Source of the DNA: Aporhodopirellula sallentina SM41
GTDB taxonomy: Bacteria > Planctomycetota > Planctomycetia > Pirellulales > Pirellulaceae
Length of the DNA: 33,431 bases
Direction: 5' to 3'
Assembly: GCF_000346505.1 (NCBI RefSeq)
Contig: NZ_ANOH01000357.1
Location: forward strand, 1 to 33,431
A program made the translations under genes and the position numbers. The number at the start of each line of letters is the position of its first letter. The first letter of the stretch is position 1. Under the pieces are notes generated by a model. The model was not told where the DNA came from. It was given only the letters and a program-made list of their open reading frames with translations, and did not search any database. Shown one piece after another: positions 9,318 through 31,611 of this stretch.

Positions 9318-9381
9318 CAGGCGGTTGCTTTCCTACGATTCATTCGGCTCGAGAAGTGTTGGCGTCCGCGCCGCGTGGTAG

Positions 9382-10782: not shown

Positions 10783-10923
10783 GGATCAAAAACCTATCCG
10801 TAAAACTCGATCGGTCAGCACACGGTCGAGTGCCCGCGTCTTATCTGTTCCCGCCGACCAACCTTAAGATACGCGATTTCAGATCACCGCGTTACCCAGC
10901 AACACGCCGCCGAGACGACTTTA

Positions 10924-12145: not shown

Positions 12146-12180
12146 GTTCAATTTGAACATAGGGTTTTATGCCGGATAAT
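12146..12180 (+). promoter_or_regulatory. Candidate sigma-70-type promoter with palindromic operator
   Basis: TTGAAC (12153-12158) and GATAAT (12175-12180) are separated by 16 bp and resemble -35 and -10 boxes. The -35 box is one arm of a perfect 6-1-6 palindrome, GTTCAA-T-TTGAAC (12146-12158), a good size for a dimeric repressor site. The predicted transcript would start near 12187, upstream of the ATG at 12232. This favours that start over the in-frame ATG at 12169, which lies between the two boxes. Confidence 0.4.
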
Positions 12181-12231
12181 GGGTCGTTGCCGGCGGAGCC
12201 GGGGGGCTTCCTCCTTGGACAGCATCACTCG

Positions 12232-15200
12232 ATGAGTGTTGTTGCGAGCGTGCTCCCTGTGACAATCAACTCAAACTACTCTTCTAACGCTGCGATCAAT
12301 CGCCGCTTGCTGATCGAGAACGTTCAGTACGCCGCGCGATCGTCCGAATATTCGGGCGACAGTTCGAGCCGCAGTTACGTCAATCCGTCATTCCGACGCA
12401 TCACGTCTTTGGTGTCCAACATCAAGGACCGGGTGATGAAGAGCATTAGCGACGACGGTTCCCTGCCACAATACGCGATCGACGACGCACTTTCGGAGAT
12501 CAGCAACCTGCTGGGCTCTTCCCTTTCGCTCGGTGGGCCGGAAAACGCGACCATCTCCGGTGTTAGCTCCGATCAGATCGCTGACGTCGAAGTCTTGGCT
12601 CTTCCGCTAGGAAAATCACTGTCCCTTTCCGGCGAAGTGACGCAGCGAGAAAGAGCCGCCAACGTGCGGATCTCCGAAACGCAGGCATTGCTCAGTGGCG
12701 GAGGGACGTTGCAGGTCGACAGCGGTTTGGGAAGCAAAACGGTCCAGATACGCGCCGGCACGACGCTCTCCGGCCTCGTTCGATCGATCAACTCGAGCGA
12801 CTACGGTGTCGACGCGATCAACAACGACGGGACCCTGCAACTCGTTTCTCGTAACTCATCTGCCGATGCTGTCCTGTCGGTCGATGTACGTCCGACTCGC
12901 GTGATCCGCCGTTCCAGCGATGCGACCATCGAGGGGCAAAATCACAGCCAGATCGCAAGCGTCGATGTCGACGCGCTGCGTCCGGGGCAATCGGCAACCT
13001 TAACCGGGACTCGTGATTCCGACGCCACGGCTGCGTCGGTGACCTATCTGGGTGACAGCAACGGGTTTGTTAATGGCACTGGTTCATTTGAGCTGACCGG
13101 ATCGATCGGTACCGAAACAATTGCGACGGTAAAAGGAGAATCGCTCGCCGACCTCGCCGCACGAATCAATGACGTGTCCGCCAACACCGGTGCTGAGGCA
13201 GAAGTCGTCAACGGTGAATTGCAAATCCGATCGCTCGAGAAGGGAGCCTCCTCGAGTCTGAGAGTCGATAATATTGTCCAACAGTACGAGACGTCGATCG
13301 AAGGGGACACCCAATCACAACTCGACGACTTCTCGTTGATCAACATCACCGAGGGAGCTGAGGTCACTCTAAGCGGATCGATCACCTCCGCGTCCGATCA
13401 CGCATCGGCAACCTATCACGGACATACCGACGGCACGATTCACAGCACGACGACGTTCGACCTTTCCGGCGATCTGGGAACCGTGCAATTCGCAGTCAGC
13501 CAAGGAGAATCGTTGACCGATGTCCGCGACCGCGTCAACTCGCAATCCGGCGCGACGGGAGTGGTCGCGTCGGTGGATGGAAACAACCTTGTTTTCGAAA
13601 GCCAACAGGTTGGTTCCGACGCAACGGTGCAGTTATCCGCAACCAACATCGGACGCCGCTCGAGCGTCTCTGGTGTGAACGCATCGCAGGTTGATTCATT
13701 CGATGTTCTCTCGATGTGGGATGAACCCGCCAGCACGCTCACCGGGGAAGTCTCGGTCGCAGCCACCCGGGCGAAACTGGTCTACCAGGGATCCAACGGC
13801 GACGCCGACGACAGCGCCTTGATTTCGATCAGCGGCGAACGAGGCACACGCTCGCTGCTGATCTTCAGCGGTCAATCGCTCGAGTCGGTGCGAAACTCGA
13901 TCAACGCACAAACCGACAACACCGGTGTGATTGCAACGCTACTCGGTGACGAGCTTACCCTGATCAGCGACTCGTTCGGATCCGACGGATTTGTCGAGGT
14001 CGACACGCAATCGGGAACGTTCGACACGACCGGCGGGGACGGCAACGGCAACGCCACCGGTCTCGATGCCGAATTGCAAATCAATGGCCAAGCCGTAACC
14101 GCGACCGAAAACCAAGTCACCTATAGCGACGGCGTCGGCACCTATTCGTTCGAACTTTCCGAAGGTTTCTCAGGTGAGTTGGATCCCATTTCTGTTCGCT
14201 CGAGCGACGGACAGGTGACGGGCGTGAACAACTCGCAACTTGATAGCTTCCAAGTCGACTCTCTCGAGCCGGTTCCCTCTCAAACGCTGAACATAGGTGT
14301 CACCGCAACAGCCTCCCGTGCTGAACTCGTTTATCGAGGTGCAAGCGGCCAACTTACGGATTCCGCCGACGTCTTGATTCAGGGCGAATTCGGTAACGCA
14401 ACCTTGAACCTAACCACAGGCCAAAGCCTCTCATCGGTTCGTGACGCGATCAACGCGGAAACGACTTCAACGGGCGTGATCGCAACACTCGACGGTGATG
14501 AACTCACGCTCGCGAGTGTCAATCGCAGTGCATCCGGAACCGTCAACGTCTCCGTCCAATCGGGCGAGTTCGACACAACCGGCGGCGACGGATCCGGAAC
14601 TGCCGTCGGTACGGACGCAACGCTAAACATCAACGGCCAGACCATCACCGGAACGGGAAACACAATCAGCTACAGCGATGGATTGGGAAGTTATTCGTTC
14701 CAATTGGCCGACGACGCGTCCGGAATGCTCGATCCGATCACCGTCACGTCGCATGAGGGCAGCTTCACTCTGTCGGGACTCGACGAGAACGGTTCGGCGA
14801 TAGGCGTCGACGCCGAAGCGACCATCAACGGTCAATCGTATACCGCATCAGGAAACGATTTTGATGTGAGCGTCAATGACGCCCAGGTTACGTTTGCGGT
14901 CACACAAGATTTCACAGGAACGCTCGATCCGATCACGATCCAATCTGCCCCCGCGAGCTTCGACGTTCAAGGAGGAGACGAAACCGGAACCGCGACGGGC
15001 ACCGATGGGATTGCCACAATCAATGGCACGTCGTACTCCTCCGCGAACGATACGTTTCTGGTTGACGTTGACGGCACCGAAGTTGCCTTCCAATTCGCCG
15101 ACGACCATCTCGGTTCCTTTGATCCGGTTCACATCAGCGCAGCAACTTCCGACTTGCGAGGCGCCTACTCCGCGAACTCCTACCGAGCGGTCGGTACCGA

Positions 15201-15594
15201 ACGTGTCGTTGAAATGAACGGTCAAGCATTGACCCGCGACGGTGACAGATACATTGTCGAGCAAGAAGGCGTTCGTCTCGCGATCACCCTCGCCGACGGG
15301 TTCCAGGGCGAGTTCGATACGTTCACCGTCAATTCAACGGTCGACGAAGATTGGGAGGAAACAACTTCGTCCTTCGATCCCCTGCAAGGCCAGGCACTCG
15401 AGTCCACTCGTGAAGCGATCTCGGATCTTTTCCAACTCGCCTCCGGGGGAATCTACTCCGGGGAGGATGCCAACCCGTTTGAAGCGATGCACGTTGTCAC
15501 CACATCACTCCTGCAGCTCGATGCTCTGACCGGCCACTCGTCGTTGCCAGACGGTCGATCGCTCAACGGTTTATTCCTGGATCAATACGCCTAG
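12232..15594 (+). CDS. Large flagellar hook-IN-like repeat protein
   Basis: About 1120 aa, with no signal peptide and no TM segment. After an N-terminal region (about 1-108) come five repeats starting G-x-x-x-S-Q-[ILV] at 12559, 12934, 13303, 13672 and 14221, spaced about 123 residues. Each ends in a hook-IN-like unit (SLxxVRDxIN, then TGVxAxxxGxxLxLxS). From 14020 a second type appears: five units of about 65 residues with TGGDGxGxAxGxDA, then INGQ, at 14020, 14569, 14764, 14959 and about 15154. This is close to the hook-IN motif of flagellin and FliD-like caps. The C-terminal about 80 residues lack repeats. I infer a filament or adhesin-like structural protein; no flagellar gene is nearby. 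The start at 12232 (MSVVASVLPVTINSNYSS) looks like a flagellin-type N-terminus and lies downstream of a candidate promoter; a longer frame begins at 12169. Confidence 0.72.
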   Translation: MSVVASVLPVTINSNYSSNAAINRRLLIENVQYAARSSEYSGDSSSRSYVNPSFRRITSLVSNIKDRVMKSISDDGSLPQYAIDDALSEISNLLGSSLSLGGPENATISGVSSDQIADVEVLALPLGKSLSLSGEVTQRERAANVRISETQALLSGGGTLQVDSGLGSKTVQIRAGTTLSGLVRSINSSDYGVDAINNDGTLQLVSRNSSADAVLSVDVRPTRVIRRSSDATIEGQNHSQIASVDVDALRPGQSATLTGTRDSDATAASVTYLGDSNGFVNGTGSFELTGSIGTETIATVKGESLADLAARINDVSANTGAEAEVVNGELQIRSLEKGASSSLRVDNIVQQYETSIEGDTQSQLDDFSLINITEGAEVTLSGSITSASDHASATYHGHTDGTIHSTTTFDLSGDLGTVQFAVSQGESLTDVRDRVNSQSGATGVVASVDGNNLVFESQQVGSDATVQLSATNIGRRSSVSGVNASQVDSFDVLSMWDEPASTLTGEVSVAATRAKLVYQGSNGDADDSALISISGERGTRSLLIFSGQSLESVRNSINAQTDNTGVIATLLGDELTLISDSFGSDGFVEVDTQSGTFDTTGGDGNGNATGLDAELQINGQAVTATENQVTYSDGVGTYSFELSEGFSGELDPISVRSSDGQVTGVNNSQLDSFQVDSLEPVPSQTLNIGVTATASRAELVYRGASGQLTDSADVLIQGEFGNATLNLTTGQSLSSVRDAINAETTSTGVIATLDGDELTLASVNRSASGTVNVSVQSGEFDTTGGDGSGTAVGTDATLNINGQTITGTGNTISYSDGLGSYSFQLADDASGMLDPITVTSHEGSFTLSGLDENGSAIGVDAEATINGQSYTASGNDFDVSVNDAQVTFAVTQDFTGTLDPITIQSAPASFDVQGGDETGTATGTDGIATINGTSYSSANDTFLVDVDGTEVAFQFADDHLGSFDPVHISAATSDLRGAYSANSYRAVGTERVVEMNGQALTRDGDRYIVEQEGVRLAITLADGFQGEFDTFTVNSTVDEDWEETTSSFDPLQGQALESTREAISDLFQLASGGIYSGEDANPFEAMHVVTTSLLQLDALTGHSSLPDGRSLNGLFLDQYA

Positions 15595-15851: not shown

Positions 15852-16772
15852 CTAACCGCTCTCTCGCTTGAGGAAACCGATCGTCGATTGAAACAGTCGG
15901 TCGTCGCGTGGTTGCGGCTCGGAGGCGTTTTGCATTTCGGACAGGTTTGCAAGGCAATATCGACAACCGAGCGTTTCGACATGAAAGTCGACAAAGCCTT
16001 GCCAAGACGATGGCAAGATTGCAAGCATGTATCGGCCTAGCGTCGAACGTTTGGGACACGTCGGTCGATTGAATTCCCACGCGGCAGCGAGATCCGCGTT
16101 GACTCGTGGCGTTTCGGATGGCACTGCTGAACCAATCGATCCGGTCGACTGAATCTGACGTTGCAACCGTTGAATAAACCGATGCTTCACTACCGCGATG
16201 TCATTTGCAGGCAACGTCATCAGCTCTGCAATTTGTCGATTTCGCAGACCTGCGTAGAAGATCGCCTCGACGATCGATAGGTCGCGAAACTTCTCCGCTT
16301 CTCGCATCTCTCTCGTGACGACTTCGATCCCGTGACACAACGCGTTCTGCTGTGCCAGGCACTGCTCTTCGTCTCTCGCGTATTGGCTCGCCGTCGCATC
16401 GGTTGACGGAACCTCATTGATACACACATGCTCGACATCATCACCGATTTCGCACGCCCGCAACGATTCCGCTTTGCCGCGACTCCGATAAAGATCAACA
16501 ACACGCCGACGCAGGATCCGAAATAGAAACGATTCGACGGACGATCGCTCTTCAAACCGGTTCATGTTCTGCAGGAAGCCAACAAACGTTTCCTGTACCA
16601 AATCCTGCGCCGTCGCGTTTTGATCCACACGCGCAACCGCGAAGGCGAGCAACCGCTTCTCGTAGCGGTCGACAAACTGACGCCAACCGTCCGCGTCGCC
16701 TGATCGGACCAACGTCAACAGATGTCGTTCGGCGGCACTTAGAGTACGTTCGTTGTTCGCGTCGGAACTCAT
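15852..16772 (-). CDS. ECF-type sigma-70 factor with C-terminal His/Cys motif
   Basis: 306 aa. Region sigma-2 spans about residues 20-100 (AQDLVQETFVGFLQNMNRF, then FLFRILRRRVVDLYR), the core-binding and -10 element. A sigma-4 helix-turn-helix follows at about 160-205 (LRNRQIAELMTLPANDIAVVKHR). The extra C-terminal 100 residues contain FHVETLGCRYCLANL, a H-x5-C-x2-C arrangement that resembles zinc-binding anti-sigma (ZAS) domains, although the ZAS spacing is H-x3-C-x2-C. The sigma factor may therefore carry its own sensor or inhibitor. The ATG shares one base with the stop of the upstream gene (TGATG), which fixes the start. An upstream in-frame extension of 88 codons is read through that neighbour and is not used. 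It is the last gene of a five-gene operon. Confidence 0.82.
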   Translation of the reverse strand: MSSDANNERTLSAAERHLLTLVRSGDADGWRQFVDRYEKRLLAFAVARVDQNATAQDLVQETFVGFLQNMNRFEERSSVESFLFRILRRRVVDLYRSRGKAESLRACEIGDDVEHVCINEVPSTDATASQYARDEEQCLAQQNALCHGIEVVTREMREAEKFRDLSIVEAIFYAGLRNRQIAELMTLPANDIAVVKHRFIQRLQRQIQSTGSIGSAVPSETPRVNADLAAAWEFNRPTCPKRSTLGRYMLAILPSSWQGFVDFHVETLGCRYCLANLSEMQNASEPQPRDDRLFQSTIGFLKRESG

Positions 16773-18058
16773 CACGCGATCGTGTTCAGCGCTACCACTG
16801 CGGCGACAACAAAAGCGCCAAGCAAACAAGCAAACCACCCAATTGATTTGCGGTGATAGCCTTGTGTCAAGAAATTCGCGATTAAACAAATAATCATCGT
16901 TGTCAAAATCAGCAGCACTGCCGCAAAGATGGTAGAGTGTCGCTCGCTCTCGCCACGTGACACCGTGGCGTTTGCCGCTGCCGCCGTGCTGTTGACCGAC
17001 AGATCCTCCAAATCGATCAACACCGCTTCTCGCCACACGTTGCCATAGGGACGTGATAGTTTCTGAGCGAAACGATCGATCACATGGGAATCGTCGAGCA
17101 CAACCATGGCCCCATAGCGCGTTCGGACATCAACCTGAGACCGCGCGTTGGCGATCGCCGATTCGCGTGCCTCGGCTTCCGTCGATGCCAGCGTGTCGCT
17201 GTACCCGACGACAAACTTCTTGGATGGAAACGCCGAAACGACTTGGTCGAGGTTGTGCACCCAAGGTTTATCGACAAATCGCAACCGCGTTTCCAACGAA
17301 CCGCGATCGCTAGTGACCACCGCACTGACGCGTCCCGGTGCATCCATGGTGCCCGGATCCCACGGTCGTGAGCGACTGGTCTGTTCGTAGTCCGCGGAAA
17401 GTCGAATCAGAATCGGCTGCGCGTTTGGCGAATCGGCAGGATTCTTCGGTTGAGCGTCGCTCTCGATTGCGATCACATCGGTGTCTTTCAACTCCTGCTC
17501 GAGCGCTTTCGAGAAAGCGGATCGAAAACCGAGTTGCTCGTCACGAAACGAAGGCTCCCCCACGACATGAACAACTTGTCGCGTGGGATTCTCTGACGAC
17601 GTGAACCATTCGGCTTCCTTCAACTCGTCGGCGGTTTGTTGCGCAAGTGGTTCAGCGGCCTCCAACAAACTCGGGTACAGATTCGCCCGAAACTCGTCAT
17701 GGTTCATGCTGGACCATTGTCCCGGACGTGACTGCGGATACGCACTAACGACAACCGGTTCAAGCCCGCGTGCTGCGAGGCGATCGTCAGCCGTATGCTG
17801 AGAACTACGAGATCCAGCAACAGTCGTCGATAAAGTGGCCGCGTTCTGGTCGGCTTCTAACTCGACCGATTGGAGGCGGACATACGCAAGGCCCACGAAC
17901 AGCAACGCCGGGATCGCAATCGCAGTGATAACCACCGCCAACGCGTTAAATAGACCGCGTGACCGATACGAATAGATTGCGAATGCGATGACGCCAGCCA
18001 ACAGGCAAAGCAGTGCGACGACAATAACCAAGACGATCGGGATTGCGATAACGCTCAT
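16772..18058 (-). CDS. Four-TM membrane protein of unknown function in kinase operon
   Basis: 428 aa, no family recognised. There are two hydrophobic helices at the N-terminus (about 3-27 and 37-60), a soluble central region of about 300 residues and two more helices at the C-terminus (about 365-390 and 403-426). The middle region would lie in the periplasm if the first helix enters from the cytoplasm, or in the cytoplasm with the reverse orientation; the sequence does not decide. It contains Ser- and Ala-rich stretches and a pattern VVGYSDTLASTEAEARESAIANARSQV that is helical. It overlaps the kinase upstream by ATGA and the sigma factor downstream by TGATG, so all three are probably made in fixed proportion. 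A plausible role is a signal-receiving partner of the kinase. Confidence 0.7.
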   Translation of the reverse strand: MSVIAIPIVLVIVVALLCLLAGVIAFAIYSYRSRGLFNALAVVITAIAIPALLFVGLAYVRLQSVELEADQNAATLSTTVAGSRSSQHTADDRLAARGLEPVVVSAYPQSRPGQWSSMNHDEFRANLYPSLLEAAEPLAQQTADELKEAEWFTSSENPTRQVVHVVGEPSFRDEQLGFRSAFSKALEQELKDTDVIAIESDAQPKNPADSPNAQPILIRLSADYEQTSRSRPWDPGTMDAPGRVSAVVTSDRGSLETRLRFVDKPWVHNLDQVVSAFPSKKFVVGYSDTLASTEAEARESAIANARSQVDVRTRYGAMVVLDDSHVIDRFAQKLSRPYGNVWREAVLIDLEDLSVNSTAAAANATVSRGESERHSTIFAAVLLILTTMIICLIANFLTQGYHRKSIGWFACLLGAFVVAAVVALNTIA

Positions 18059-19740
18059 GCTTTCACCATAGGTTTGTTTTTGCTGGACTCCGCCATCGCG
18101 GGAGCACTCTTGAGGATGTCCACCGACTCTCGAGAAAGCGTTCCGCGATCTCGCTCATGACCGATCGCTTCGCGCTGCACAGAATCACCTTCGGGTTCTC
18201 GGTGAGGCGACAACAATTGGATGGTGATTGCGGATGAAAACACCAATGCCCCCACAACGAGAACGTGGCCAATGTCGCCTTCAAACATGGCCGTAGCCAC
18301 CATCGCGATCGTGCCCGCGAGTACGGTCCGCAGTACGCCGACCCTTGGCATCCGATCGATGGAGAGAAACGACCGGAAATCAAGAATCGCAGTGACAAAG
18401 ACGGCCCCGACGACACAATCCACGTAGTCTTCAAACGGCAGGTGCGGCGGCAACGATTCAAAAACCGCCGCCACGGCCAAACAAGGCGAAACCGCGATCG
18501 CTCGGGTGACGATCGCCGGTACCAAACCGTAGGTTCGCGGCAGCGCGGCCAAGAAGAATCCCGTCAGCGCCGCACTCACCAAAACGCAGCAAACGGACAG
18601 CGTCAGAATGTCGCCCCAGAACCACGACTGGCGATCACCCATGCATCCGAATGGAACCAGCAACAAACAAACAACCGTCGCGATTGTAAAACGCAACGCG
18701 ATCCCGGTCGTTTCCTCTCGAAGTCCGGTTGGATAAGTCGGACGCCACCACAATCCGATCGAACTCCAGTCAAAATGGGACGGTCGCTCGAACGGTAACG
18801 AGTCGTCTTGTTGTGTATCGCGGAACGCGGTCGGAGTCGCCAGTGTTTCCGTCAACGCGGGCGACGATGCCTCCGCGCGAACAACGCGATGCTGAACCGC
18901 GCGTTCCCCGATCATCGAGAGAGTCGACGGAGGCAACGTGTATTGCAGTTCTTCACCCTGATTAAGATCACGCAGCAGTTCGCTTGCGTTTTGGTATCGC
19001 TCGTTGGGATCACGTCGCATGGCTTTGGGGACGATGTCGTCGAACGGCGCCGGCAACCGACTGATATCGGGTTCTGCGGAGAGGTGCTTCATCAAAACCT
19101 CTCCCATGCTTTCACCTTCGAAGGGAGGGACTCCGGTCAACATTTCATACAGGATCACACCGAGAGCATAGATGTCGACTGTTTTATCGTACCGGCCTTG
19201 GCCAATCTCCGGCGCCATGTAGTGCACACTACCGACCGTTGCTGTGTGCCCGCTGCGATGACTCGCCGTGATCGCTTTACTGAGACTGTAGTCACCGATC
19301 TTGACCACGCCCTCTTCGAAAAAGATGTTGTGCGGTTTGAGATCGCGATGCACCACGCCAGCGTCGTGCAGATACGAAAGACCGCGACACAACTCGCGTA
19401 AAAAGTATGTTGCCTGATCGGCACCGAGGCCGTCCGGTGACTCGTCCAGTATCTCGCGCAGGTTTGCCCCGGCGACGTATTCCATGATCACCCACGCCGT
19501 ACCCTCGGCGTCTTGCTTGACGTCAAAAATCGATACCAGGTGTTGCGACTTCAGGTTCATGCAGTGACCGATCCCACGCAGTTCAATGTCTTCGTAGTTT
19601 TGAACCGCCTTCAACGCCACCTCACGGCCCGCGTCACTGATCGCAAAGTACACTTCGCCAAACCCGCCTCGCCCGAGAGCGTGCTGGATTGTGTATCCGT
19701 CGAGTGGCGAATCGCCGTTTTGATATCGATACGCTGGCAT
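18055..19740 (-). CDS. Membrane Ser/Thr protein kinase (DYS variant)
   Basis: 561 aa Hanks-type kinase. The Gly-rich loop LGRGGFGEVYF (about 23-33), K44 in VALKAV, the catalytic loop HRDLKPHN with D133, and GSVHYMAPEI are intact. The magnesium motif DFG is replaced by D150-Y-S in VVKIGDYSLSK, so the metal Asp is kept. The kinase domain spans about 15-275. After a linker, about five hydrophobic segments (about 345-500) anchor it in the membrane, and a charged tail follows. The start at 19740 shares TGATG with the stop of the upstream FHA-like gene; a 20-codon longer frame would overlap that gene further and is unlikely. The downstream gene overlaps by four bases. It probably phosphorylates operon partners, for example the FHA-like protein or the sigma factor, but no substrate is shown. 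Confidence 0.85.
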   Translation of the reverse strand: MPAYRYQNGDSPLDGYTIQHALGRGGFGEVYFAISDAGREVALKAVQNYEDIELRGIGHCMNLKSQHLVSIFDVKQDAEGTAWVIMEYVAGANLREILDESPDGLGADQATYFLRELCRGLSYLHDAGVVHRDLKPHNIFFEEGVVKIGDYSLSKAITASHRSGHTATVGSVHYMAPEIGQGRYDKTVDIYALGVILYEMLTGVPPFEGESMGEVLMKHLSAEPDISRLPAPFDDIVPKAMRRDPNERYQNASELLRDLNQGEELQYTLPPSTLSMIGERAVQHRVVRAEASSPALTETLATPTAFRDTQQDDSLPFERPSHFDWSSIGLWWRPTYPTGLREETTGIALRFTIATVVCLLLVPFGCMGDRQSWFWGDILTLSVCCVLVSAALTGFFLAALPRTYGLVPAIVTRAIAVSPCLAVAAVFESLPPHLPFEDYVDCVVGAVFVTAILDFRSFLSIDRMPRVGVLRTVLAGTIAMVATAMFEGDIGHVLVVGALVFSSAITIQLLSPHREPEGDSVQREAIGHERDRGTLSRESVDILKSAPAMAESSKNKPMVKA

Positions 19741-20696
19741 CAGACGAGAGCTTTTGAGTGTGAAAGGACCGTCAATGTGAACCGAATGTCGTTGATACAA
19801 ACGCTATCGCCATGCATGAGCGTCTGCGTGTCGTATCCGCCTTGCCGATGAAGTGTGTAGGCGTCACCGGAGGGCTGCAGGATGACGGGAGGATTCATGT
19901 TTGGCAACGTGAAGTGGCATCCTGCGTGACCAAAAAGAACCGAGTCGGCCACCAAGACCACACGCCGCACATCGCTTCGAAAAAGTTTCGCACCGCTGAC
20001 ATCGAGGATCGCCGAATTGCTCGCGGCGACTGCTCGAGTGAACCGCAAACGCCCTCGTCGTCCGACCGCGATCGAATCGCCCGAACTCAAGAGACGCTGG
20101 CTTTCGCACTGCCAGAAATAATCTTCATCATCTCGATAAATTCGGATCGGCTTGGATACGCCCACTGTTCGCAACGAAATATCGAGCGGTGCAGTTGTTG
20201 ATTCTCCCCCGATCGAAACCGTATCGGATCGCAGCAACAACAAACTGCCGATCCCATCGACTTGCAAGATGTCGCCTCGTGAGTTGACGCCACCTCGTTC
20301 CGACGTGAATCGCAATTCGCGTCCTTCTTCGAGATGCTGGGCGATACGTTGACGCAGTTTTGCGATCTCAATTTGTCGTCCACCCAAATGATAGGCGGCG
20401 TCCGCGTCATGCCGCGCGTCGTCCGCACGCCCGTCATCGAAATGCTGGTTTCCCCGTCGCACAAATTCGTCCACGAGACGATCGACCAGCGTTTGTGCGT
20501 CGCGATGATGGCGAGACGGCGACGATTTCAGCAACGCGAATGCCTCATCCAAACGCCCTGCGTTCATCGCAATTTCGGTTCGTTTAAGGTCGGTGTGAAA
20601 CAATGCAAACGGTTCCAATACTAATGGATTCACTCGGTGGATTGTCGTCGCGGAAGAGCCTTCTCGATACCGGAGAGGCACATGACACCCAGACAT
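19740..20696 (-). CDS. TPR-like / FHA-like protein
   Basis: 318 aa soluble protein. The N-terminal third (about 35-120) is helical and rich in Ala and Arg, with TPR-like phasing (RGNQHFDDGRADDARHDADAAYHLGG). The C-terminal half is beta-rich. Two segments look like forkhead-associated (FHA) cores: one around GDSIAVGRRGRLRF and one around VLVADSVLFGHAGCHFTLPN, followed by YTLHRQGGYDTQTLMHGDSVCINDIRF. The usual S-x-x-H and N-G residues are absent or altered, so phosphothreonine binding cannot be claimed. Its position just before a Ser/Thr kinase, with overlapping TGATG, fits an adaptor or target of that kinase. It is separated from the upstream gene by two bases. Confidence 0.6.
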   Translation of the reverse strand: MSGCHVPLRYREGSSATTIHRVNPLVLEPFALFHTDLKRTEIAMNAGRLDEAFALLKSSPSRHHRDAQTLVDRLVDEFVRRGNQHFDDGRADDARHDADAAYHLGGRQIEIAKLRQRIAQHLEEGRELRFTSERGGVNSRGDILQVDGIGSLLLLRSDTVSIGGESTTAPLDISLRTVGVSKPIRIYRDDEDYFWQCESQRLLSSGDSIAVGRRGRLRFTRAVAASNSAILDVSGAKLFRSDVRRVVLVADSVLFGHAGCHFTLPNMNPPVILQPSGDAYTLHRQGGYDTQTLMHGDSVCINDIRFTLTVLSHSKALV

Positions 20697-20698
20697 GG

Positions 20699-21577
20699 CT
20701 ACTTTGAAGTCAGTTTCAGGCGCACATTCTGTTCGTCCGGTTCAACATCATCCGATCCCTCAGCCTCAAAGCCCTGCACTTCATTGGATGTCCCGTCAAA
20801 ATGCAGATCGTACGCCGATAGGATATCATTCTCGGTCATCGCGGAATCATCGAGTGGAATGGCCACGACGTCCTGTTCGTGTTCGAGCACTCGCTGAGCG
20901 ACCGCGAGTCGCGTCTCGATTTGATCGAGCAATTCATCGGCTTCACGCATCTCGCTGCCGCCTACGGCCATTTTCGATCCGAGTTCAGAATCGACTCTTG
21001 ACGCCTTCTGCAGCCGATCCTGGGCGATAAGCATTTCGACTTTCTGTTCGAGCTGAACCTTTCGATTTCGCATCTCTTCCAACTTGAACAAAGCAGCCCC
21101 GAGAACCTCTTCGCGTTTTTCCAGCAATCGAGTTTTCATGTCGATCGCCAATTCACTTTGCTTGAACCGCTCCAGCCGCGATCTTAATTGGCCGGCGAGT
21201 TGTTTGCGTGGCACTTCGCGATCGCCGATCCGATAGGAAACCTGCTGGACTCGCAGTTGGTCACGCAGCGCCGCCAAGTTGGACTTCTCGCTGGAGAGAC
21301 GCTCGGTGCTCGCGTGGAGGTCATTTCTCAATGCCTGAATCGCGACCTCTTCTTCGGCGATGACGCGGACCTGTGATTGCAATTCCGGCAGAATCTCGTC
21401 AATCAAATCGCGTGCTCGCCGCAGTTCGAATTCGAGCGGCACGGAGTCTTGCACCGATTCCTGAACTGCCCGAGCCGACGTGCGTAGGTAGCTGGTGAAA
21501 CTCGTTCCCAGAAGAAGAAAGCCGCCAACGATCAACGCGGCAACCGCACCTAATGAGAATTTGACGATCCGAAGCAT
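20699..21577 (-). CDS. Membrane-anchored coiled-coil protein, first gene of kinase operon
   Basis: 292 aa. A single N-terminal hydrophobic helix (about 5-27) is followed by long stretches with heptad patterning (about 50-230), rich in Leu, Glu and Arg, and then by an acidic tail. No enzymatic motif is visible. The architecture recalls PspA-like or scaffolding coiled-coil proteins, but the N-terminal TM differs from PspA, so I do not name it. It is two bases upstream of the FHA-like gene and is the first of five genes transcribed away from the shared intergenic region. A structural or envelope-sensing role is an inference from location. Confidence 0.62.
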   Translation of the reverse strand: MLRIVKFSLGAVAALIVGGFLLLGTSFTSYLRTSARAVQESVQDSVPLEFELRRARDLIDEILPELQSQVRVIAEEEVAIQALRNDLHASTERLSSEKSNLAALRDQLRVQQVSYRIGDREVPRKQLAGQLRSRLERFKQSELAIDMKTRLLEKREEVLGAALFKLEEMRNRKVQLEQKVEMLIAQDRLQKASRVDSELGSKMAVGGSEMREADELLDQIETRLAVAQRVLEHEQDVVAIPLDDSAMTENDILSAYDLHFDGTSNEVQGFEAEGSDDVEPDEQNVRLKLTSK

Positions 21578-21948
21578 GACGATTGACCCTCCCGAGAGTC
21601 ATTTTCAAGGCGGTATGGGACCACGAACTGCGGTCTCTCAAAGGGCAGTCGTTGCCGAGCAAAAAATGTTGCAGCAGAAAATGCGAAAATTTGAATTCTC
21701 TTTCTCAGCGGCACTCCACGCGTGCGAGACTTTTCCAACAGATGTCGCCCACTCGTGATACTCTTCCCGGCACTCCCGGTTCAAACACCAGGAACCTGTC
21801 CAGAACCTCATCATCCGATCGGCGTTCGTCGCGTTTTGCATGAAAGAGCGGTGCCCGTCGAACATTCGCGCAGATTCTCAGATTGACTGGATCGTTGACC
21901 GCGTCCATCGCCCAGGCTAATTTCTGGTCCCCGCTCTCCGCACTGCGT
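21578..21948. promoter_or_regulatory. Shared divergent intergenic region of the two sigma/kinase operons
   Basis: 371 bp lie between the divergent start codons of the coiled-coil gene (minus) and the second sigma factor (plus), so promoters of both operons must lie here or in the flanking codons. On the plus strand TTGACC (21895-21900) and GCTAAT (21916-21921) form a weak -35/-10 pair with a short 15-bp spacer. An A/T-rich stretch near 21661-21705 could be part of the minus-strand promoter. No clear ECF-type -35 (GAAC) with a matching -10 could be fixed by eye. Confidence 0.45.
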
Positions 21949-22566
21949 ATGACCAGCCAATCACACAATCTGCCGACCCGCCTTTCGTTGCTCGAGCTTG
22001 CGCAATCAGAAAAGAACCACCCCGCGTGGGAAGAACTGCTTGACTACTACCGGCCCTTCATCAGCCGCATTCTCGTGCATCTCGGTGTCGCGAAATCCGA
22101 CGTGGATGACGTCTGCCAATTGACTTTGGTGCGTCTTTGGAAAGACCTCGCCAACTATCAACACCAACCCAAACGAGCCCGATTTCGAAGCTGGCTCTCG
22201 CACCTGATCCGTAGCACGGCGGTGGATTGGCACCGGCAACAACGACGCAATCAGAAGATGGTCGACACCGATTCGCCGGTGATCAACGATATCCTGATGG
22301 CAGAATCGGAATTGGAACAACGGATCGAGGTAGAATGGCGGGACCACATTATCGGACTCGCCCTCGAACGTCTCAGGACGATCTTCTCCGGTAACGCCGT
22401 CGACGTTTTCGTACGCAGCGTCGAGGGTGAATCGGCCGCATCCATCAGCGAGGATTTGAACATGAGCGAAGAGAGCGTTTATGTCCTCAAACACCGGGTC
22501 AAGAAGCGTTTGGTGCATGAAGCGTACGAACTGCGACGCGAACTAGAACTGCCCGATGACGTCTAA
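21949..22566 (+). CDS. ECF-type sigma-70 family factor
   Basis: 205 aa. Region sigma-2 is clear (about 20-95: WEELLDYYRPFISRIL, then DVDDVCQLTLVRLWKDL and FRSWLSHLIRSTAVDWHR), as is a sigma-4 helix-turn-helix (about 145-195: SAASISEDLNMSEESVYVLKHRV). It directs RNA polymerase to a set of promoters, probably including its own operon. The start at 21949 (MTSQSHNLPTRLSLLEL) is chosen because family N-termini are short; an in-frame ATG at 21883 adds 22 residues without similarity. It has no C-terminal Cys motif, unlike the sigma factor at 15852. The stop lies 11 bases inside the kinase gene, so the two are co-translated. Confidence 0.85.
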   Translation: MTSQSHNLPTRLSLLELAQSEKNHPAWEELLDYYRPFISRILVHLGVAKSDVDDVCQLTLVRLWKDLANYQHQPKRARFRSWLSHLIRSTAVDWHRQQRRNQKMVDTDSPVINDILMAESELEQRIEVEWRDHIIGLALERLRTIFSGNAVDVFVRSVEGESAASISEDLNMSEESVYVLKHRVKKRLVHEAYELRRELELPDDV

Positions 22567-24709
22567 TTTGCCCCGCGACGAAGCGCTCAAACGCATCAAA
22601 CCGATCCTCAACGATCTCTTCGAACAGGCTGATCCGGCCCAGGCTGCAGGCCAGAAAATCGAGTCGGACGACGATATCTGCCCCCTTTATTGCGCGATTT
22701 CTCGTATCGAAAACCGATACCAAAATCCCGAACTGATCGGGCGCGGGGGGATGAAGGAGGTCTACCGAGTCTATGACGCTCGTGCGACCCGGCATGTGGC
22801 AATGGCGAAACCGTTGCCAGAGTTCAACAGTGACCAATTCGATGCGTTTCTACGCGAGGCGCATCTCACGGCACGTTTGGACCATCCGAACATCATCGAC
22901 ATGTTTGACATGGATCTCGATGAGCAGGGCCGGCCATTCTTCACGATGCAGTTGAAACAGGGCCGGTCGCTCCGAGCGGTCATTAATTTGCTCCGCAGTG
23001 GTGAAGGCGAAACGGCCTATTCGCTACGCGATCGCCTGGAAATTTTCTCTCGCGTGTGTGACGCAATCGCGTACGCACACTCACGCCAAGTGCTTCACCT
23101 CGACATCAAACCGGAGAATGTCTTCGTCGGTGAATTTGGCGAAGTGAAGGTCTGCGATTGGGGCATGGGCGTCGTCATGTCGCAAACCGAAGGACAGAGC
23201 CCATCGACCGTCCTTTTGGATCCCGATCTGTATGGTTCCTTGCTAGAGTCCGCCAAGGGTACGCCGATCTACATGGCGCCGGAGCAAAAGGAGAAACGGC
23301 GACACAAAACACCGCAAATGGACATCTACGCGCTCGGATGCCTGCTGCACGAATTGCTGACGTTCGAACTACCGGTCCGAGTCCGTTCCGGAAATTCGAA
23401 AATCGGCCTCGCGCTCGCCGCAACCATTGCGAAGGCCACCGCACACGATCCAGCAGATCGCTATCAAACCGTCGAAGACCTGCGACAGGACATCGCGCGC
23501 TTTCTCGCCGGCTACAGCGTTTCGGTAGAACAAGCTGGTCTTCGCCGGGAAGCCGCGTTGTTCTACCGGCGCCATCGCGAGGCGTGTGCGATCACGTTGG
23601 GTTTGCTGACCGTTCTGTCGCTCTGCGTGTTCTTCTTTGTAATGCAGTTGCGCGAGAGCCGTGCAGACGCGTTGGACGCGATGGCTGCTGCGGTCGCCGC
23701 CCGCGGGCATTCACAGGAGGCTCAACTACGCGCCGAAAACGCCCAGGAACGAACCAAACGAGCGCTCATCAGCGCCGAAGAGGCGCAATCTCGAGCAGAA
23801 GAAGCCCAAACCCGAGCCGAACAAGCGCAGTCTCGGGCGGAAGAGTCACTGGCGAAATACCTTGCCGAGAAAGCGGAATCGGAACGACGCCGTGATCGCC
23901 AAGTTTCCGAAGCCGTTCTCCACGCTGAGTTGTTGACGGACATCGCGTTTTTGCGTGACGAAACACTTCCACTCGCGTTTCAACACACCAACCAACACCT
24001 CGACTCGATACTCTCGTTCAACCCGCCTCCACAATCACACGCGTGGACGCAAAAGTACTGGCTGCATTTCCTGACCCAGGACTTCGAATCGGCGTTGCAG
24101 CTAGTACGCGACGGCAAAATCATTCAACCCGACTTGGTGCGGTTGGCTCGCAAATACCAACCGCACGTCGGACCGAATGGACGACTCGATACCGATCATT
24201 TCATTCAGTTGGTACGTGACCTGTCTCGGAACGAACCGTGGCGAGCGCCGCTGGCGGAAAAAATGCTGGTCTACGACAACCTCACCCCAAGACCCGCCGA
24301 CGATCAAACGCGCCTCGTTCGGGAATGGATCGAGATCAACAACCCCGAGTGCGAAAACCTCCAGCTGGATTTTAATGCCGAAACGGAAACCGTCCGTCTT
24401 CGCAGCACCGGCGTGACTCAATTGCTCCGCACGATCGCGAGCACCAACTATCAACCGAGTCGCATTTGTTTGCTGCAGACGCTCCGGCCCCGTGTCCTCG
24501 ATTTGCGGGGCACGAACATTCACGATCTGTCGCAGCTACGCAGTTTGGAACTGATCGAATTGGATCTGCGTGGGACGCCGATCACGGATCTGTCCCCGTT
24601 GAAGGGAAACCGAATGCTCCGGCGACTCTATGTTTCCCCCGACCAGTTCACGGAATCAGACATGGAGGCGCTGCCGAAGTCGATCGAAGTCATTGTCGGA
24701 GACGAATAG
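22556..24709 (+). CDS. Membrane Ser/Thr kinase with coiled coil and LRR-like C-terminus
   Basis: 717 aa. The kinase domain (about 55-325) has IGRGGMKEVYR, K85 in VAMAKPLP, a catalytic loop HLDIKPEN with D183 (HRD changed to HLD, so a non-RD kinase), D201-W-G in place of DFG, and PIYMAPEQ. The catalytic Lys and both Asp remain. One TM helix (about 343-363) follows. Beyond it is an Ala/Glu/Arg coiled coil with seven-residue RAEEAQ[ST] repeats (about 390-440). The C-terminal region ends with two or three leucine-rich-like units (RVLDLRGTNIHDLSQLRSL and then ELDLRGTPITDLSPLKG). The kinase would be cytoplasmic and the repeats on the far side of the membrane. It overlaps the sigma factor by 11 bases. 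The sensor domain could detect an envelope ligand, but the signal is unknown. Confidence 0.87.
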   Translation: MTSNLPRDEALKRIKPILNDLFEQADPAQAAGQKIESDDDICPLYCAISRIENRYQNPELIGRGGMKEVYRVYDARATRHVAMAKPLPEFNSDQFDAFLREAHLTARLDHPNIIDMFDMDLDEQGRPFFTMQLKQGRSLRAVINLLRSGEGETAYSLRDRLEIFSRVCDAIAYAHSRQVLHLDIKPENVFVGEFGEVKVCDWGMGVVMSQTEGQSPSTVLLDPDLYGSLLESAKGTPIYMAPEQKEKRRHKTPQMDIYALGCLLHELLTFELPVRVRSGNSKIGLALAATIAKATAHDPADRYQTVEDLRQDIARFLAGYSVSVEQAGLRREAALFYRRHREACAITLGLLTVLSLCVFFFVMQLRESRADALDAMAAAVAARGHSQEAQLRAENAQERTKRALISAEEAQSRAEEAQTRAEQAQSRAEESLAKYLAEKAESERRRDRQVSEAVLHAELLTDIAFLRDETLPLAFQHTNQHLDSILSFNPPPQSHAWTQKYWLHFLTQDFESALQLVRDGKIIQPDLVRLARKYQPHVGPNGRLDTDHFIQLVRDLSRNEPWRAPLAEKMLVYDNLTPRPADDQTRLVREWIEINNPECENLQLDFNAETETVRLRSTGVTQLLRTIASTNYQPSRICLLQTLRPRVLDLRGTNIHDLSQLRSLELIELDLRGTPITDLSPLKGNRMLRRLYVSPDQFTESDMEALPKSIEVIVGDE

Positions 24710-25067
24710 CGCGGGCGCAAAACGTCTTGCATGCACCATCCGTTTGCGTGAACGCTATCTCCCGTAGTGAATCTTGCAAAAGATCCTCACGCAGCGGGAT
24801 CTTCAACAAGATCCCCTACAGCCTCCCGAAAGCGAACATGCCTCCCACGGAGTTTTCTTTTCGATTTTCTCCGCCGAGTGTTTAGATCCGGCGAGACAGA
24901 CCCGGTTATACATGCGAGGACCGCGCCCGCAAAACCGGATCGGCCTCATCACTCGCACCTCGAATCACTCACATATTCGACTCCAAGATTCGGCCCCGCC
25001 CGACGAATAGGACCGGTTGCTACACGCGGCGGCAGGTCAAGCACTCCGTAGTGGACACCCCAACGAC
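24710..25067. other. Intergenic region with palindromic element
   Basis: 358 bp between the kinase and the secreted glycosidase. It contains the palindromic repeat at 24764-24819, and CGCAAAACG can pair imperfectly with CGTTTGCG just after the kinase stop (about 24717-24748). No gene was recognised. Confidence 0.5.
24764..24819. repeat. Palindromic repeat related to 5005-5086
   Basis: The unit begins GTAGTGAATCTTGCAAAAGA and ends in CAACAAGATCCCCTAC. The arms are near reverse complements with several mismatches. Shared words with the 5005 element (GTAGTG, ATCTTG, AACAAGATC, CTAC) show both belong to one family, inserted about 19.8 kb apart. Confidence 0.6.
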
Positions 25068-27257
25068 ATGATAAAAAACGCAAAAAAGGCAGTATTCGGT
25101 GCCATTCGGGTGGTCGCATTGTTGCTGCTGACGTCGACCTGCGTGCCCGCAGGAGGCCCAAACTTGGTGCCGCCGGCGGACGGTCAAACCGCAAACTATT
25201 GGTGTACCTGGTACGCCCAAAACTACTGGATTGGCCGCGGCACTGATCTGAAAGACTTGCGAGGCGTCTCCAACCAAGCCGCCCGTGAAGAGTTGACCGA
25301 ACACGCCGTCTTCAACGAGAAAGACGGATGGGCGACGACGTATCTGGACGGTGCACGAGAGGACTTTATCTTCCTGATCGACCATGGCTGGCAAACGAAA
25401 GACGCGTCGAAACGGATCGCTGGCGGACCGCCGTTTTTCAATCTCGTGGCCGACGAAGATGACTTCCCGAGATACGCGGGACTTTCGCCGCAGGACGCGT
25501 TGCTCCAGTTCAACAAAGAGATCAAAGCACTCGGATGGAATTCGCTCGGCATCTGGACACGTGGCGACGTGACGCCCGAGCAAGCACGAACGTTCGTTGA
25601 GTGGTCCAAGCACGCCGGAATCCGCTATTGGAAAATTGACGGCGGAGACATCGCTCAGTTCAATTCGTTCAAGGCAAAGCAGGAAATATACCCCGACCTC
25701 GTCCTTGAATATGTCACCGGGGCGGGTGGGAACCTCAATCCCAAATGGGATCAAGAACGATCTTCGTATCCGTCGGTTTATGAAATCGGCGGACGGTTGC
25801 AAGCTCCCATGCTACGTTGCCTGCAGCATTCCGATACTTTTCGGACTTACGACGCGTCGCCCTTGTTGATGTCCGTAACGACGCTGCGGCGAACGCATGA
25901 CATCTTGAAACAAACCCAACAACAACCCAAATACCGAGCGATCCTCAACGTACAAGACGATTGCAATATCGCGATCGGTTTAGGTGTTTTAGTCGCCAGC
26001 AAACGACATCCGAACCTAAACGAACGCACCCTGCTCGGACGCGACCTACACCACCAGTTGTCGGGCAAACGGACCATGCAGCGACGCATCAACGAAGTCG
26101 AGCGACTCGGAAGATGGTCGCGAATTGCCCCGGCTTTTCCCGCGGGTGAAGGCGTCTATCTGTCTTCCAAAGAGGAGCTGATCGATCGCTGCGAGTTCAC
26201 CAAATGGGACACGTGGGCATCGAACACCTACGGCAAAATCGTGCATCAAAGCGCTCCCGCAATCATGTCGCGAAACATGCCCCTTCCCATCGTGGAAACC
26301 GACGGTGACGCACCGTACGTCTGCGCGACAACCTATCCCAATGGGCCAACCGGAATCGCGACCGAGGGCCGAGTGAGTCCGGCCAACCAGTGGTACCATC
26401 CGCGTGCGAAAGTTTCGGTGCAGATTCGTGATGCGTCTCAACCGATCGGAATTGCCGGACACTACCAACAACTGAAACTCGGTTTCGCCGGCAGCATCGA
26501 AGACGTCAAACACGTATGGGCGCAAGACTTGTTGGCGGCGGAATCGATCGACATCAAAAGCCAGGTATCGATCCAGGGTGCAACAATGACGATCGATGGA
26601 AATCTGATTGACGAACTGGGAACCTCCGAAGCCGACCGCGGTGACCTCTCCGCCCCCGGTCTCGTGATTCGTTTGGAGGGAGACTCCCTGCCCAAAGCCG
26701 GCGACGATTTCACGCCCGTAACCGAACCGGTGACTGCCGCCGAACCTCTCGATGAACAAACGCAGACGTTGCAGGACGGGTTCACCGGGCGGGCGGAACT
26801 GAAGCGTTGCCGTTATGGCTATCGAGTGACCGCGACAGGGCCGGCGCAAACCATGTTGAAGGAACTCGACGAAAGCATCACGTCAGGGAAACTCTCTGTT
26901 CAATGGCGAATGAAGCCAGCCAACCGATCGGCAACCAAGAACGGCATGTTGGTGCTTTCGAGTGACGAGGACGCGAACGCTGCCTTATGCGCCGGAAGCT
27001 GGATCGGATCCAACGAAATAACGCTTTTCGAAAATCATTCCCAATGGGGCAACGATTTGAAGGGTTCTTTGGACCCAGACGGAGAGTTGTATTGCCGGAT
27101 CGATGTCGATCTTGATTCGCGAACGGCGGAGCTGACGATTAACGAAAAAACAATCTCGCTCGCGTTCTCTGAAACCGTCACGAGTATCAACTACATCGGA
27201 TTCGGCGTGCACAACTCGGCCACCCTGTTCACCGAGCCAAAGATCACTCGCCAATAG
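25068..27257 (+). CDS. Secreted clan GH-D-like glycosidase with C-terminal beta-sandwich
   Basis: 729 aa. The signal peptide is MIKNAKKAVFGAIRVVALLL, with cleavage near residue 30. The N-terminal two thirds look like the TIM barrel of clan GH-D (GH27/31/36, alpha-galactosidase-like): GWNSLGIWTRGDVTP, then RYWKIDGGD. Here D191 matches the nucleophile position, and HSDTFRTYDASP holds D262, a candidate acid/base. A C-terminal domain of about 150 residues (from about 575) is predicted beta-rich and resembles concanavalin-like sandwich modules. The precise GH family and substrate are not assignable by eye. The start at 25068 is chosen because an upstream in-frame ATG at 25017 would put 17 hydrophilic residues before the signal peptide. 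A strong terminator follows it. Confidence 0.65.
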   Translation: MIKNAKKAVFGAIRVVALLLLTSTCVPAGGPNLVPPADGQTANYWCTWYAQNYWIGRGTDLKDLRGVSNQAAREELTEHAVFNEKDGWATTYLDGAREDFIFLIDHGWQTKDASKRIAGGPPFFNLVADEDDFPRYAGLSPQDALLQFNKEIKALGWNSLGIWTRGDVTPEQARTFVEWSKHAGIRYWKIDGGDIAQFNSFKAKQEIYPDLVLEYVTGAGGNLNPKWDQERSSYPSVYEIGGRLQAPMLRCLQHSDTFRTYDASPLLMSVTTLRRTHDILKQTQQQPKYRAILNVQDDCNIAIGLGVLVASKRHPNLNERTLLGRDLHHQLSGKRTMQRRINEVERLGRWSRIAPAFPAGEGVYLSSKEELIDRCEFTKWDTWASNTYGKIVHQSAPAIMSRNMPLPIVETDGDAPYVCATTYPNGPTGIATEGRVSPANQWYHPRAKVSVQIRDASQPIGIAGHYQQLKLGFAGSIEDVKHVWAQDLLAAESIDIKSQVSIQGATMTIDGNLIDELGTSEADRGDLSAPGLVIRLEGDSLPKAGDDFTPVTEPVTAAEPLDEQTQTLQDGFTGRAELKRCRYGYRVTATGPAQTMLKELDESITSGKLSVQWRMKPANRSATKNGMLVLSSDEDANAALCAGSWIGSNEITLFENHSQWGNDLKGSLDPDGELYCRIDVDLDSRTAELTINEKTISLAFSETVTSINYIGFGVHNSATLFTEPKITRQ

Positions 27258-27699: not shown

Positions 27700-28980
27700 A
27701 TGGATACGCGAAATTGTCCCCGCCAGAAATCAGGCGGATTTACCTTGGTCGAATTGCTCGTAGTAATCGCAATCATTGGCGTGCTCGTCGGTCTGCTCTT
27801 GCCGGCCGTTCAAGCAGCCCGTGAAGCTGCCCGGCGGATGAGTTGCAGTAACAACTTCAAACAAATCGGTTTGGCAATTCACAACTACCACTCCGCCTAC
27901 AAGCAACTTCCAATTCACAAAGGTGGAACCGGCACCTCGTTCCAGGCGACCCGCGTCGGAACCGACAACTCGAACTTCTACAACGGACAACGACAAAGCA
28001 TCTTTGTTGGTTTGCTTCCGTTCTTTGAAGGCCAGGCTCTCTGGGAACAAGTCTCCAATCCACTCGTCGAGCGTACCGACGGTCAAGCCGTCGCGCATGG
28101 CGGTGTCGCAACCGCGCCTTGGCCGGCATTCGGACCTCATCCAGGACACGTTCAATATCCGCCATGGGCGACCGAAATCCCAACCCTGCGATGCCCCAGC
28201 GATCCCGGCATTGGCCTTCCGTCGCTCGGTCGAACCAACTACGCCGCGTGTCTCGGAGACAGCCCCTTCCGCGCCGCCTCCGGAGCGACGGACCAGAACT
28301 TGGTCGTCACCAGTGCTCGTTCACAGCGTACTCGCGCCGCACAACGGGGCATCTTTGTGGCACGACAAAGCACTCGCTTTCGCGACATCCTTGACGGACT
28401 GGCGAACACGATCATGGCAGGCGAGATCCCCACGGACCTCGGTGATCGCGACACCCGAACGGCCATCAACTACAACGACGGAATGGTCATGCGTGCGGAG
28501 CTGAGTGACGCGGTGGAAACTCCCGCCGGTGCCCCGAACGACTGCTCGAATCATCCGAAGATTGACGCGGCACGACCGCAGTTCTGGACATCCGCAGCAA
28601 CCATATCTACCAATAACGCGGTTCTCGGACGCGGTTACCGTTGGGGTTCGGGCGAATGCATGTTCACAACCATGTTCACGATATCGCCACCGAACTCTCC
28701 TGCGTGTGCCCTGCTGAGCAACGAGACCGGAGTGTGGCAATTCTGGCAACGCGCAGGTGTGCTTCCTCCAGGCAGTCGCCACCAAGGAGGATGCCACGTC
28801 TTGATGGGCGACGGAGCCGTGAAGTTCGTTACCGATTCCATCGACGCGGGGAATCAGAGCAGCACTCCCGTCGCCATGGGAGGAGGAGTCTCCAACGCGC
28901 CCGGTTCGATCAGCCCCTACGGTCTTTGGGGAGCCCTCGGGACACGTGCCAGCAAAGAAGTCATCGACGAAGAAATCTAA
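27700..28980 (+). CDS. DUF1559 protein with prepilin-type N-terminus
   Basis: 426 aa. It begins with a short charged leader, then [20 protein letters not shown], the class III prepilin signal with a conserved Glu after the cleavage site, followed by [17 protein letters not shown]. This N-terminal part is the same as in type II secretion and type IV pseudopilins. The rest is the DUF1559 domain, which ends with the family H-x9-D-G motif ([16 protein letters not shown]). The family is strongly expanded in planctomycetes and its function is not known; surface or periplasmic filament roles are inferred. It is followed by a small lipoprotein gene, a common arrangement in these organisms. The length is typical. 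Confidence 0.94.
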
Positions 28981-31509: not shown

Positions 31510-31611
31510 TGCTCTGACTCCCCCGCTGACATGTTCGTGGCAGGTGGACGCTCCGCGTTTACTTGCCTCGAACTCGTCGGCGACTATTCCTCTTCTCTCG
31601 TTGATATCACC

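Follow-up and report, generated by a model that had tools for sequence, protein, structure and literature searches.

A five-gene kinase–sigma factor operon with a sigma-fused zinc-finger-like domain, and its divergent sigma–kinase neighbour, in Aporhodopirellula sallentina

Background

Extracytoplasmic function (ECF) sigma factors encoded beside membrane-bound Hanks-type Ser/Thr kinases have been described as EcfP/PknT in Vibrio parahaemolyticus (ECF43) and EcfK/PknS in Xanthomonas citri; both are compared here as they are described in passages of PMC8999054, PMC13147305 and PMC8103513. Planctomycetes are rich in Ser/Thr kinases and in ECF sigma factors, according to passages of PMC8567305 and PMC4807772, and the planctomycete groups ECF59, ECF61, ECF62 and ECF217 were proposed to be linked to Ser/Thr protein kinases (STPKs) in the relevant part of PMC8999054. 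A literature search, covering titles, abstract openings and passages, found no planctomycete kinase-ECF pair with a defined target promoter. The present analysis concerns a stretch of 33,431 nucleotides from Aporhodopirellula sallentina SM41 (contig NZ_ANOH01000357.1), called the window throughout, in which a minus-strand operon of five genes (m1–m5) and a plus-strand pair (p1–p2) diverge. The minus operon likewise places an ECF sigma factor beside a membrane-bound Hanks-type kinase. Genomes, contigs and loci used for comparison are numbered with G, C and L respectively.

Results

The coordinates of the open reading frames (ORFs) agreed with the original prediction of two operons diverging from a gap of 371 bp. 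The junctions were as short as had been claimed, with a gap of 2 bp followed by overlaps of 1, 4 and 1 bp from m1 to m5, and an overlap of 11 bp between p1 and p2. Each half did contain an ECF sigma factor and a Ser/Thr kinase, since Pfam identified Sigma70_r2 in m5 and p1, and Pkinase in m3 and p2. No Pfam family matched m1, m2 or m4 above its curated cut-off, and the leucine-rich repeat (LRR) match at the C-terminus of p2 fell below the cut-off also. Hydrophobic segments were counted with a Kyte-Doolittle window, rather than a dedicated predictor. The principal features are as follows:

20699–21577, minus strand: m1, 292 aa, membrane-anchored coiled-coil protein with one hydrophobic segment; first gene of the type-B operon (defined below), recognised from its ORF and a family profile
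19740–20696, minus strand: m2, 318 aa, with an N-terminal helical, TPR-like part and a degenerate FHA-like C-terminal part (approximately residues 142–310)
18055–19740, minus strand: m3, 561 aa from the ATG at 19740, Hanks-type Ser/Thr kinase (Pkinase, E = 7e-47) with six hydrophobic segments
16772–18058, minus strand: m4, 428 aa, four hydrophobic (transmembrane, TM) segments with a soluble region in the middle
15852–16772, minus strand: m5, 306 aa, ECF sigma factor (Sigma70_r2, E = 5e-16) with a fused C-terminal zinc-finger-like domain
15855–16112, minus strand: the C-terminal domain of m5, residues 221–306, with C239, H264, C270 and C273; a separate gene in type-A genomes
16611–16613, minus strand: codon of Thr54 of m5, a candidate phosphorylation site within TAQD, at the position of sigma region 2.2 where many sigma factors have DAED
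21644–21673, minus strand: promoter-like element TGCAACATT-N13-CGACTGCC, which lies 66 bp ahead of where m1 starts and contains the type-B dyad
21578–21948, no strand: divergent intergenic region, 371 bp
21949–22566, plus strand: p1, 205 aa, ECF sigma factor (Sigma70_r2, E = 1e-11) with DVDD at the DAED position
22556–24709, plus strand: p2, 717 aa, Ser/Thr kinase (Pkinase, E = 4e-38) with one hydrophobic segment and a sub-threshold LRR-like tail

The minus operon belongs to a widespread family. A relative of the m3 kinase (E ≤ 1e-70) was present in at least 227 of 241 genomes from the family Pirellulaceae. The majority of the matches listed were of one kind, termed type A, in which the kinase frames were longer, mostly about 680–900 aa. 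In the other kind, type B, the match extended beyond the kinase domain at 48–67% identity; among the matches listed, this was found in 14 genomes besides that of the window. The kinases of G244, G207 and G205 matched well over the kinase domain only, and were classed as intermediate rather than type B. All five minus-strand genes recurred in order in 12 of the 14 type-B loci, and their co-linearity is therefore not due to chance; m4 and the fusion of the sigma factor to its C-terminal domain were present in all 14. The m1 family profile found a match in 12 of these loci, and in 19 of 20 type-A loci picked by their kinase. One type-B locus (L129) was interrupted by a contig end; another (L125, in G378) had no m1 within the stretch, the gene being found on a different contig (L342, G378:C115) behind a perfect copy of the promoter pattern described below.

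Within the same 20 type-A loci, m1, m2 and m3 stood together in 19. Against a fixed coupling of kinase and sigma factor, however, a sigma gene was found no more than 2 kb from the kinase in just nine, and the small protein corresponding to the m5 C-terminal domain (the C-protein) was encoded in the stretch in only five. Kinase, sigma factor and C-protein need not travel together, therefore, and in type A the latter two are often encoded elsewhere than the kinase; the ECF43-like arrangement of a sigma factor beside an STPK was general in type B and found in type A to the extent just given. Further afield, m1, m3, a multi-TM gene and a sigma factor occurred in one stretch in L161 (Pirellula), L162 (Schlesneria), L163 (Planctomycetales) and L166. 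The fusion was also seen in sigma factors on three contigs, L156, L157 and L165, which bear the names Phycisphaerae, Sedimentisphaerales and Phycisphaerales; L156 also had relatives of m2 and m3. Across the phylum, 44 of 246 sampled genomes had a match to the profile of the type-A C-protein. A match to m4 was absent from the other 195 of 196 genomes sampled from the order, and a scan of genome contigs with m5 as the sole query returned no match. Type A thus stands for the core operon, of which the minus operon of the window is a type-B, accessory paralogue. The titles, abstract openings and passages returned by the literature search contained no description of it.

It had also been proposed that the two halves constitute a single seven-gene circuit, with two kinases and two sigma factors in cross-talk through the shared 371-bp region. 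The divergent arrangement and the shortness of that region are consistent with this proposal, but the distribution of homologues is not. Homologues of p1 (E ≤ 1e-25) and p2 (E ≤ 1e-70) were absent from all 14 type-B loci and, at the same thresholds, from 43 loci around type-A genes, 39 of which hold a type-A kinase. The converse held for the 22 p1–p2 loci examined besides the window (L090–L092, L097–L115). Genes for m1, m2, m4 or the C-domain were absent at E ≤ 1e-5, as were kinases of the m3 type at E ≤ 1e-50; the profile of the m5 sigma factor matched eight p1 genes there and, weakly (E = 9e-6), one frame of 708 aa. Two genomes, G331 and G329, possess both halves, on different contigs. The check suggested with the prediction, a search for conserved co-occurrence of all seven genes, thus showed adjacency in neither the 14 type-B nor the 22 p1–p2 loci. 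Because homologues of the two operons are found apart, the very outcome that the original prediction had named as decisive against it, the idea of a joint circuit fails; the conserved element at 21644–21673 also serves the minus side. A joint circuit was rejected on these grounds as highly improbable. Each half is, nonetheless, conserved as a unit of its own, with type-B loci and p1–p2 loci recurring separately. On balance, the locus probably consists of two independent kinase-sigma modules that abut by happenstance in the source genome, the minus one being an accessory type-B copy.

Upstream regions of m1 were compared in a type-B set (the window plus 12 type-B loci, five of them from one genus) and a type-A set (41 of 47 loci with a usable m1, 36 of them non-redundant). 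The dyad ACAT-N15-GACT was identified in 10 of 13 type-B regions, window included, where shuffled sequences reached a maximum of 3–4. Among type-A regions, the dyad AAGA-N15-CGAA was identified in 32 of 36 non-redundant sequences (shuffled maximum 4–5), and the consensus CCAAGAT-N12-GGCGAAT was derived from 35 of 41. Part of this conservation may reflect plain descent. In the window genome, the type-B pattern had 38 sites with up to three mismatches, compared with 19 for a reversed-pattern control. Thirty of the 38 were read, and no wider regulon was found among them. Two of the 30 were intergenic, one at the end of a contig and the other the operon's own element, which would suggest a unit that amplifies itself and may be bistable. 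The pattern produced 36 matches in nine related genomes, where the operon's own site was recovered in seven; the other matches, part of which were examined, were scattered or repeats.

Ten genomes were scanned for the type-A pattern with up to one mismatch. With the N12 spacer there were 97 matches, and 13 of the 30 that were read were intergenic, three of them before m1; with a spacer one base longer (N13) there were 83 matches, and one of the 30 read was intergenic. The two spacers differ in the placement of their matches, therefore, but hardly in number, and the latter tells against the explanation favoured here. No wider type-A regulon is claimed; there was an excess of intergenic sites, but only a DUF1549/DUF1553 gene recurred, in two genomes (L323, L331).

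A type-A-like element stands 37 bp (L323, G341) and 75 bp (L331, G334) upstream of the DUF1549/DUF1553 homologues, and single type-A-like sites also precede genes for TM2, FxsA and DUF4013 proteins. On contig C1 of G372, one 28-bp pattern match was repeated identically about a dozen times, and is probably a multi-copy repeat; the situation in G320 was similar.

The two kinases had been described as non-canonical. This is justified by their membrane parts, but not by their active sites, as both m3 and p2 retain the catalytic Lys, the Asp of HRD/HLD, the Asn and the DFG-equivalent Asp (HRDLKPHN and DYS in m3; HLD and DWG in p2). HRD was combined with DYG or DYS in 60 of 62 kinases of the family. 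On the side of the sigma factor, 42 of 52 proteins in the family had Ser or Thr within the first two DAED-equivalent positions (type-B set, window included, 14 of 16; others, 28 of 36), compared with 15 of 75 ECF sigma factors outside the family; this control was assembled from a pattern scan and a few loci of the source genome, rather than at random, and only 24 of the 75 had an acidic first residue. A point against a simple phosphorylation switch is that the acidic residues at the last two equivalent positions are mostly kept, so that phosphorylation would not strictly be needed by the logic of EcfP; the EcfP model, as set out in passages of PMC8999054 and PMC13147305, applies to m5 at best in part.

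Alternatively, m3 may act mainly on m1, m2 or m4, for instance in an envelope sensor complex, with the sigma factor as an output regulated by its amount. The near-constant association of m1, m2 and m3 in type-A loci, fewer than half of which have a sigma gene close by, would fit this explanation, as would the short gene junctions and the conserved promoter-like elements. Against it are the enrichment of Ser/Thr in the region 2.2 motif and the presence of the sigma factor in every type-B locus, and it is considered somewhat unlikely.

The C-terminal domain of m5, approximately 80 aa in length, was overlooked in the original prediction. These last residues matched separate type-A genes, mostly of 131–158 aa and often near a sigma gene. 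Cys239, His264, Cys270 and Cys273 were invariant in nine aligned rows (the window, seven type-B loci and the intermediate L132), and the equivalent four residues were invariant in twelve type-A proteins. A structural model of m5, with a mean predicted local distance difference test (pLDDT) score of 81, comprised a sigma fold and four confident helices in the C-terminal domain (block pLDDT 71–96 over residues 221–290), where the conserved Cys, then the His and CxxC, are placed on neighbouring helices. There was no hydrophobic segment in m5. Class I zinc anti-sigma domains (zf-HC2) likewise have a conserved Cys followed by His and CxxC on adjacent helices, and the m5 domain, whose predicted layout resembles theirs, is called zinc-finger-like.

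The signature counts against a closer relationship, and the profile similarity is weak. The spacing in m5 of the window, shared by the type-A and type-B domains that were aligned, is H-x5-C-x2-C and so differs from the class I signature Hx3Cx2C, as it is given in a passage of PMC7406223. Comparison by hhalign with one set of zinc anti-sigma-like sequences scored 8%, a weak match over the N-terminal half and not the Cys/His part; a second set scored 3%, also weak, over the His-Cys part. By way of control, the two sets scored 85% against each other and an unrelated control scored 0.1%. Matches to zf-HC2 among type-A C-proteins were weak (best E = 9e-4, below the curated cut-off). The domain sequence matched only two Cas5 sequences in the PDB (E = 0.014). 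Foldseek with the m5 model returned no chain below E = 0.001, the best being AlgU at 1.0e-3, and a second look covered the sigma part only; the lack of a structural match to the C-terminal domain is therefore not evidence against one. Membership of the zinc anti-sigma family is not claimed, given the different signature and the weak profile similarity.

We infer that the domain acts as a brake on the sigma factor. It could instead be a docking or metal-sensing domain required for activity, as in CorE-like sigma factors. This alternative accords with the invariant Cys/His set at a C-terminal position, and CorE is activated in a metal-dependent manner by its C-terminal domain, as described in the part of PMC8999054 devoted to it. 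The Cys-rich C-terminal extension of CorE-like ECF238 factors does have a counterpart in m5, but the CXC motif that this review attributes to such proteins does not occur in the linker between sigma2 and sigma4 (residues 98–128); moreover, a free type-A C-protein often encoded near the sigma gene is a better fit to an anti-sigma-like partner. A docking or metal-sensing role is therefore regarded as unlikely, and a brake is assumed below.

Of the remaining minus-strand products, m1 gave three weak matches in the PDB, the best to a tail needle protein (E = 1e-4), which were taken as generic coiled coil. The description of m2 as TPR/FHA-like was borne out for the FHA-like half through two type-A relatives, but not by m2 itself, which lacks a Pfam FHA match: four m2 relatives were tested, and both type-A proteins scored as FHA (PF00498; L070, E = 3e-8; L075, E = 4e-5), whereas both type-B proteins did not. 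FHA domains that bind phospho-threonine have an Arg after the first IG strand. This residue, whose scarcity counts against a phospho-reader, was present in 3 of 55 aligned m2 proteins, comprising none of the 18 in the type-B set, window included, and 3 of the 37 others. In the window it is replaced by Gly; type-A proteins mostly have Gln (24 of 37) or Gly (9 of 37), and a Ser-x-x-His remnant was visible solely in part of type A. The AlphaFold model of m2 was helical and then all-beta, with a mean pLDDT of only 63; a fold search with this model returned nothing at E ≤ 0.001, the best rows being an S-layer fragment and TPR-like helices. Since the Arg of phospho-binding FHA domains is missing, a putative role of m2 of the window as a phospho-reader is doubtful.

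The plus half is less widely distributed. Relatives of p1 at 49–75% identity were found in 7 of 241 family genomes, these being the window's own (with three paralogues), G322, G329 and G331 (same genus), G315, G317 and G320; four further genomes had relatives at 37–41% identity. Sigma factor and kinase lay side by side in the 22 p1–p2 loci, with L102 cut inside p2 and the kinase frame of L114 in two pieces. Among these, p1 reached at least 49% identity in 18, of which 17 had a readable flank once L102 was excluded. Reading on from p2 along the same strand, the first gene to be recognised encoded a DUF1559 protein in 14 and a sulfatase in two (L101, L103), the exception being L090, with a BNR_4 protein. 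No DUF1559 or sulfatase gene was next behind p2 in the four distant loci (L112–L115). In the window, p2 is followed by a family-less protein, a DUF1559 protein and two sulfatases:

25056–27257, plus strand: protein longer than 700 aa that matches no Pfam family; in L106, a homologue (E printed as 0) stands behind p1–p2 and DUF1559
27700–28980, plus strand: DUF1559 protein with an N_methyl signal, probable partner gene of p1–p2
29959–31509, plus strand: sulfatase, probable member of the p1–p2 cluster
31531–33159, plus strand: second sulfatase

For the first of these sulfatases, L097 and L103 held matches at E < 1e-280. According to a passage of PMC4807772, DUF1559 seems to be confined to the PVC superphylum. 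In the source genome (8.19 Mb in 491 contigs, with 74 sigma region-4 and 119 DUF1559 matches) the density of DUF1559 is about one match per 73 kb; 23 of the 74 ECF matches had a DUF1559 match within 4 kb, where 9.2 would be expected from density. Most likely, to judge by gene order, p1–p2 switches on the DUF1559/sulfatase cluster behind p2. Two considerations tell against this. The 17 loci, drawn from seven genomes, are not independent, and no motif stood out upstream of p1, the top dyad occurring in 5 of 19 regions when shuffles reached 3–5; as a result, the argument for control by p1 is one of gene order. The titles, abstract openings and passages searched held no description of ECF-DUF1559-sulfatase clusters, for which p1–p2 is a concrete candidate regulator.

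Elsewhere in the window, the following genes were observed:

12169–15594, plus strand: protein of 1141 aa with four stretches of Flagellin hook IN motif, convergent with m5
454–4925, plus strand: GH116 glycoside hydrolase followed by a sulfatase, overlapping by 4 bp
5193–11718, minus strand: Bestrophin-like protein, AcrB-type RND pump, HlyD-type adaptor and ion-channel protein

Discussion

The type-B operon can be accommodated in a model in which m3, together with m1, m2 and m4, would phosphorylate m5, with Thr54 in region 2.2 as the candidate site, and/or its C-terminal domain. Phosphorylation would relieve an in-cis brake imposed by the zinc-finger-like domain, and m5, once freed, would drive transcription of m1–m5 from the GCAACAT/CGACTGCC promoter. 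Once the core operon had been duplicated, the promoter specificity of type B may have changed, from CCAAGAT/GGCGAAT to the element just named; type B also has sigma factor and brake in one chain. As type A has another promoter-like element, and a small free protein instead of the fused C-domain, the type-A and type-B copies are probably insulated from each other. A duplicated, kinase-gated switch, with a sigma factor carrying its own zinc-finger brake, a single strong target in its own promoter, and two insulated copies, is put forward tentatively, as a possible rather than a probable account. The operon offers a footprinted promoter-like element, a candidate phosphorylation site, and a natural experiment in the fused and free C-domain and in the B and A elements, through which the question of how planctomycete kinases control sigma factors becomes directly testable.

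Among described systems, the planctomycete Rhodopirellula baltica has an FHA-domain protein, RB1789, and an ECF sigma factor that is raised in high salinity, RB1790, with consecutive gene numbers (PMC2754498). A Cys/His C-terminal domain on a sigma2-sigma4 ECF factor is shared with CorE (ECF238), and with ECF48, ECF52 and ECF53, where a zinc-finger anti-sigma part is fused, going by the group descriptions in PMC8999054. Unlike those groups, m5 has neither a hydrophobic segment nor a CXC linker, its partner is a kinase operon, and its domain exists in type A as a free protein. By description, m5 or p1 could belong to ECF59, ECF61, ECF62 or ECF217, as these are portrayed in that source. EcfP/PknT and EcfK/PknS are among the nearest systems, in the accounts cited at the outset. 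As in these, Ser/Thr is common in the region 2.2 motif of the minus-operon family (42 of 52 sigma factors); in contrast to them, the last two motif positions stay acidic in most members, and the system has five or six genes, whose products include coiled-coil, TPR/FHA-like, multi-TM and zinc-finger-like components. The five-gene minus half is real and widespread, and a variant of the kinase-ECF pairs that are already known.

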